This document shows positions 39,370-40,310 of a DNA stretch of 40,322 nucleotides, in pieces. Position 1 is the first letter of the stretch; the number at the start of each line of letters is the position of its first letter. The stretch is from Verrucomicrobiota bacterium (GTDB taxonomy: Bacteria; Verrucomicrobiota; Kiritimatiellia; UBA8416; SLMC01), in assembly GCA_030018915.1 (NCBI GenBank), contig JASEHE010000004.1, positions 1-40,322 of the forward strand, written 5' to 3'. Position numbers and translations under genes: made by a program. Under the pieces are notes generated by a model that did not search any database, was not told the origin of the DNA, and worked only from the letters and a program-made list of their open reading frames with translations.

Positions 39370-39678
39370 ATGAAAACAAACTACGACGTCATGGTTGCGG
39401 GACACCTGTGTCTGGACATCATCCCGCGCTTCACGGACACGGGCACTCGCCGTTTCGACGAGATTTTCAGGCCCGGCAAACTCGTTTTCATGCGCGGAGT
39501 CGCGATCGGCACTGGCGGGTCGGTTTCCAACACCGGCATCGTGCTGCAGCGGCTGGGCAACCGGGTATGTTTCAGCGCGCGGGTCGGCGACGACGACTTC
39601 GGAAGATTGACCGTTGAAGCGCTCAAGCGGCACGGCTGCGCCGATGGAGTTCGCGCCGTTGAAGGCGCTGACAGGTAA
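39370..39678 (+). pseudogene. PfkB-family carbohydrate kinase, 3' truncated
   Basis: MKTNYDVMVAGHLCLDIIPRF...GTGGSVSNTGIVLQRLGNRVCFSARVGDDDFGRLTVEALKRHG; ends abruptly at a stop inside a GTAACTACTCAG hairpin repeat; catalytic C-terminal part absent. Confidence 0.85.
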
Positions 39679-39716
39679 CTACTCAGCAGGCATCCCGCGG
39701 CGGGATGCCTGCTGAG
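39675..39716. repeat. REP-like unit: 12-nt tag GTAACTACTCAG plus 17-bp perfect hairpin (copy 1)
   Basis: gtaactactcagcaggcatcccgcggcgggatgcctgctgag; arms 39682-39698 and 39700-39716. Confidence 0.8.
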
Positions 39717-40269
39717 GTAAAAGGGGCAAGCCCGCGCTGGAGTCATGGGTAAAGATCACGAGGTGTTGACTGCCGGCACGAAGGGGTTGCCGAGGAACAC
39801 ACGCTGCAACGCATCCAACGCGTTGAGTCCGTTTTTGCGGGCGGTGGAGACGTATCCGCGGATGCGACAGAAGTTCACGAGGGCCTCGAAGCTGCGGAAG
39901 GTGCCGGAGATTTTCTGCCGCAGCTTCATCATGCGCAGGTCCGTTTCCGACTGGTTGTTCGTGAATGGGATCGAGAAGTTCCGCATGAAGGCGAGGATGC
40001 CATCGGAGTGGTCGCGGAAGCGGTCAAGGAGGTTGCGGGCCTTGCTCTGCTTGCGGCGGCCCCGCCGTTTCGGGCCGTGTGCCGGAGCGACCGGGTTCTG
40101 CGCATAGCCCGCTTGCACGATGCGCTCGTAGCCCTTGAGGAACCGCTCCTGGTCTGACGGCGGCAGGGCGCTCAGGCCGGCGGCGCGGGCTGTGTCGACA
40201 GCGTTCTTGATGCCCAGCAACTGGTCGATCATGCCCTTGGCCCACCGTTGAGCCTGCTCCTCCCACAGA
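39717..40269 (-). mobile_element. IS66-family transposase 3' portion and probable element end
   Basis: ORF 39756-40232 plus in-frame upstream LWEEQAQRWAKGMIDQLLGIK; FTNNQSETDLRMMKLRQKISGTFRSFEALVNFCRIRGYVSTARKNGLNALDALQRVFLGNPF is IS66 C-terminal signature; sequence abutting copy 1 starts GTAAAAGGGG, compatible with an IS66 terminus (GTAA). Confidence 0.82.
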
Positions 40270-40310
40270 GTAACTACTCAGGTGCCCGCCCGCAGCGGGC
40301 GCGCACCTGA
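40270..40310. repeat. REP-like unit: same GTAACTACTCAG tag plus a different 16-bp hairpin (copy 2)
   Basis: gtaactactcaggtgcccgcccgcagcgggcgcgcacctga; tcaggtgc-c-cgcccgc / gcgggcg-c-gcacctga with one C.C mismatch. Confidence 0.8.

Follow-up and report, generated by a model that had tools for sequence, protein, structure and literature searches.

The right-hand end of the window, which is the whole stretch of 40,322 nucleotides analysed here (Verrucomicrobiota bacterium, assembly GCA_030018915.1, contig JASEHE010000004.1), contains the 5' part of a pfkB-family sugar kinase gene and the 3' part of an IS66 transposase gene (tnpC), both interrupted, together with two identical copies of the 12-mer GTAACTACTCAG, each followed by a strong stem (Table 1). 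This arrangement had been reported in the initial annotation and was confirmed by window search and folding; no further exact copy of GTAACTACTCAG was found in the window. The pfkB frame spans 39370–39678 and its stop codon is the TAA within the GTAA that starts the first tag. The tnpC frame is readable to 40269 and the gene is interrupted at 40269/40270, so that both gene truncations described earlier were borne out. The 158-aa fragment of the window transposase matched PF03050 (8.6e-10) and NF033517 (8.8e-26, with a score under the full-length cut-off, the sequence being a fragment), and was ~90–92% identical to residues 330–502 of the TnpC of a relative, L106. Stem A comprises 17 bp about a single base in the written sequence, or 16 bp with a 3-nt loop when folded, and stem B has one C.C mismatch. 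Folding as single-stranded DNA gave -21.5 kcal/mol (z = -9.2) for A and -16.6 kcal/mol (z = -4.6) for B, and none of 200 shuffles folded as well as either stem.

Table 1. Features at the right-hand end of the window
Feature	Position	Strand	Remark
pfkB-family sugar kinase gene, interrupted, 5' part	39370..39674	+	PF00294, E=9.7e-7
Target-site duplication GCTGACAG, 8 bp, left copy	39667..39674	.	Right copy adjoins B end at start of contig C148
Terminal inverted repeat (tip) of IS66-type element, end A (tnpC 3' side)	39675..39686	+	
Subterminal hairpin A	39682..39716	.	Overlaps last 5 nt of tip repeat; covaries among relatives
IS66 transposase gene tnpC, 3' part, ~170 codons	39756..40269	-	PF03050, NF033517
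Presumed 8-bp target site of nested insertion, TCTGTGGG on tnpC strand	40262..40269	.	
Terminal inverted repeat, end B (druA side), second nested copy	40270..40281	+	
Subterminal hairpin B of nested copy	40278..40310	.	

Genomic copies of the tag and their flanks

A whole-genome search with the first 11 bases of GTAACTACTCAG returned 50 copies in 2.1 Mb, whereas the reversed control pattern gave 0 and 1. Apart from the copy at 39675, each pointed outward to a contig end no more than 142 nt away; such a layout is explained by the breaking of a short-read assembly at a repeated element. The sequence inside the tag belonged to only two hairpin classes with minor variants, A (n = 21) and B (n = 28), the one further end being cut after 12 nt. 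Class A ends continue into tnpC. The flanks outside the tag differed in nearly all copies, all 50 tags were borders of a repeat, and no solitary hairpin was found among them. The constant tag is an inverted repeat common to both ends, and the two stems in the window therefore differ because they belong to opposite ends. The covariation that had been read from these two stems did not hold, as they are non-equivalent ends and not homologues. Separately, two copies at the ends of contigs C4 and C208 (L010 and L056) had an identical 30-nt flank before the tag, which suggests a duplicated flank or strain variation.

When the flanks of A and B ends were compared all against all, six exact matches of 8 bp were found against 0.009 expected, and the other match lengths gave one or two pairs (5, 6 and 7 bp) or none (9–12 bp). 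The GCTGACAG at the window A end pairs with the copy beside the B end (L041) that opens contig C148. When these flanks were joined and the element was removed with one copy of GCTGACAG, a continuous full pfkB frame was restored across the two contigs. A paired B end was lacking in the bin for 15 of the 21 A ends. The B-end element at 40270 extends rightward, and the tag there is the B end of a second copy inserted inside the tnpC of the first. A single junction of this nested insertion was seen, and its partner, TCTGTGGG before an A end, was not among the genomic ends retrieved.

An IS66-family element with two different ends

These results together make us nearly certain that the tagged hairpins represent the two different termini of a single kind of multi-copy IS66-family element of ~2.6 kb. 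One copy lies in pfkB, with its A end at 39675 and its B end on contig C148; end A adjoins the 3' end of tnpC, and end B would adjoin a druA-like gene. By analogy with the IS66 family, from which its role is inferred, the DDE transposase TnpC would act on the GTAACTACTCAG tips and make the 8-bp target duplications. In this genome both end classes start with GTAACTACTCAG, and a complete relative, L109, has tips at 2 and 2637. Between its tips lie only two genes, a DruA-domain protein (PF14236, 68–1045) and a TnpC with PF03050, zf-IS66 and DUF6444, and no tnpA or tnpB was found there. L106 contains the same two genes, with the DruA-domain gene at 113–1054, and one tip; TnpC is full-length in both relatives. 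In nearly all relatives with a TnpC tail at least 72% identical, end A is located 84–90 nt after the tnpC stop, and in the window element tnpC lies 84 nt inside the tip. The bin yielded no element interior apart from the tnpC fragment of the window, and thus no complete copy for this genome. The sequence inside the B ends of this genome could be aligned to the leader that precedes druA in L106, which makes it very probable that the local element carries druA as well, although its interior was not binned. A MITE of an IS66 element was considered and rejected for the window copy, which carries tnpC between its ends.

IS66 members without tnpA and tnpB exist, these genes not being a required feature, and the nearest group is presumably the tnpC-only, ISBst12-like type. 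The element shares with the family a TnpC with DDE_Tnp_IS66 and zf-IS66 domains, tips starting with GTAA and 8-bp duplications. It differs in that its tip goes on with CTACTCAG, tnpC is preceded by a DruA-domain gene, a perfect covarying stem lies just inside the tip in this subgroup, and L109 is without tnpA and tnpB. In the literature, 8-bp repeats (PMC3281130) and GTAA tips are described for IS66 elements, some of which have passenger genes (PMC12888890). The transposition itself appears ordinary for IS66, and the variant with structured ends is apparently undescribed; none of the titles and abstracts returned by literature searches, which covered openly accessible papers, indicated hairpin ends of IS66. 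The initial annotation had taken the hairpins for a mobile family landing in coding sequence. They are indeed mobile, multi-copy and found in genes, but the inserted unit is the element and not the hairpin. The tag is essentially the ordinary IS terminus that had been named as the contrary outcome, but in two kinds from one IS rather than a single one. A defined element thus replaces the false lead of a new mobile hairpin family, and it helps to explain the breakup of the bin into 209 pieces.

The REP/RAYT or IS200/IS605-type reading proposed at first, in which solitary hairpins are moved single-stranded by a Y1 transposase and the complement of the tag is its cleavage or guide site, is very improbable. 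It draws on the layout of a tag plus palindrome, and REP/RAYT (TnpA_REP) systems do share with these ends a short conserved head, a variable palindrome, multiple copies and compensatory changes. REPs are headed by GT(A/G)G and occur as inverted pairs flanking a Y1 gene, and the IS200/IS605 family is without terminal inverted repeats or larger target duplications (PMC2817692). The head before the window palindromes is GTAACTA, the tag runs into the stem and GTAG occurs on the complement only. The hairpins here border a DDE transposon with 8-bp target duplications, with IS66 tnpC adjoining the hairpin, and none of the 50 genomic copies is solitary. Similarly, subterminal hairpins are shared with IS200/IS605 ends, but this element has inverted repeats, an 8-bp duplication and an IS66 transposase; the tag, with its GTAA start, is the terminal inverted repeat of this DDE element. 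A search for Y1 or RAYT genes in the genome yielded only two partial hits, on contigs 728 and 557 bp long and without an adjoining palindrome, and no RAYT (Y1) gene flanked by tagged palindromes was found there. That reading also draws on a relative, G215, which has perfect 49-nt palindromes that bear the tag at each end and are without 8-bp duplications. At least two of them (L141 and L142) look solitary, with no IS interior seen beside them, and a Y1 (RAYT-like) gene is ~0.56 kb away from L142. This proximity may be due to chance and is in a genome other than that of the window; furthermore, another G215 palindrome, L082, marks the B end of a druA-IS66 copy that has decayed, and L140 has, by eye, the same interior sequence. 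The G215 palindromes could be MITE-like derivatives of the IS66 element, though they are without 8-bp duplications. An assembly or binning artefact is hardly credible: the bin is from short reads and every copy does sit where a contig ends, but such breaks are expected from a collapsed repeat, the flanks are nearly all different and pair by 8-bp duplications, the pfkB frame is restored, and the same ends recur in independent assemblies. In another genome, G035, a 49-nt nearly perfect palindrome with the tag and one diverged end (L065) was seen without IS genes beside it.

Stem conservation and possible roles

Older relatives with ~40–50% TnpC identity keep GTAACTACTCAG or a near form without a comparable stem. 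Distant tnpC-only relatives have the same or a close tip and perfect 8-bp duplications, namely tctatttt (L210), ccaagttg (L211) and gatttgct (L205). The presence of tag and duplication without a stem in these relatives indicated that tag and hairpin are separable. An A-end stem directly after the tag was found in one TnpC clade (support 100/100) and, with few exceptions, lies 84–90 nt past the tnpC stop. The clade comes from bins assigned to Verrucomicrobiota, Planctomycetota, Fermentibacterota and Acidobacteriota, although binning errors may contribute to this spread. Only when the same end was compared between relatives was the covariation claimed at the outset recovered. Over 15 pairs in 10 distinct A ends, pairing held in 90.7% of cells against 77.8% in shuffles, 8 of the 15 pairs were changed on both sides (4.2 in shuffles), and double-change cells numbered 18 (6.2 in shuffles); these counts are supportive and not a probability, as the hand-trimming of the arms to omit the loop biases them towards the structure and the sequences come from relatives of one another. 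Slid structures of the A ends were paired in 34–46% of cells.

Within the genome, three of the 28 B ends were off the canonical sequence and all by palindrome-type changes: L016, a contig-end copy, has an exact inversion of the inner stem, and L025 and L052 have an arm correction. One of the 19 readable A ends, L009, has its central base flipped, and another four A ends each show one C-to-T change. L016, L025, L052 and L009 are the ends of contigs C22, C75, C196 and C1, respectively. The palindrome-type changes would be explicable by template switching within the hairpin, and since template switching gives such changes, perfect stems are not a proof of selection.

We lean towards a working role of the stems at the element borders, split about evenly between end recognition or regulation and insulation. 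That the hairpins at both borders act purely as transcription insulators, which stop or disarm incoming host transcripts and end the tnpC message, with no part in DNA recognition, is a tenable though doubtful explanation. It agrees with the strong stems at both borders of the window element, the fixed place of stem A ~40 nt past the tnpC stop, and the keeping of stems despite sequence change. Against it, neither stem is followed by a T-run on either strand and a terminator scan found neither. The B tip in the two copies with a strong B stem lies ~160–170 nt upstream of the druA start, which is too far to hide a ribosome site directly. An intrinsic terminator was rejected on the negative scan, and the missing T-runs make classical terminators unlikely. 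That the stems are functionless and kept perfect by template switching, in which replication copies one arm onto the other, is somewhat unlikely. The three deviant B ends and the flipped base of L009 are what it would produce, but both the place and the length of the stem are kept in bins from several phyla, and the partly decayed stems in three related copies (L110, L111 and L112) argue that perfection is not automatic. Recognition of the folded end, as hairpin or cruciform, by TnpC and/or the DruA-like protein through its shape, with the sequence free to change, is rather unlikely as a specific proposal. If it were true, this process would have left its traces in the inverted hairpin centres of single copies. 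Should the stems prove important for movement, the element would be a DDE transposon with structured ends, a feature usually tied to Y1 elements, which move as single strands, and the puzzling DruA domain would be placed in the context of a transposon. An Rfam search with the hairpin gave no credible match.

The DruA-domain companion gene

Among the papers searched, none mentioned DruA together with IS66. The DruA domain (DUF4338) has been described as GNAT-like (PMC10853773). The DruA-like protein had only a marginal PADLOC DruA match and no PDB relative by sequence, and its AlphaFold model (mean pLDDT 46) was too poor for use. A DruA-domain (PF14236) gene accompanies tnpC in this IS66 subgroup not only in L109 and L106 but also in L213, L214 and L215. 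A rule that the hairpin goes with druA was rejected, as L213 has druA without a strong stem. In addition, a different DruA-like gene (L227, G000:C138:16248-16757; 37% identity) is located ~200 bp from an A end.
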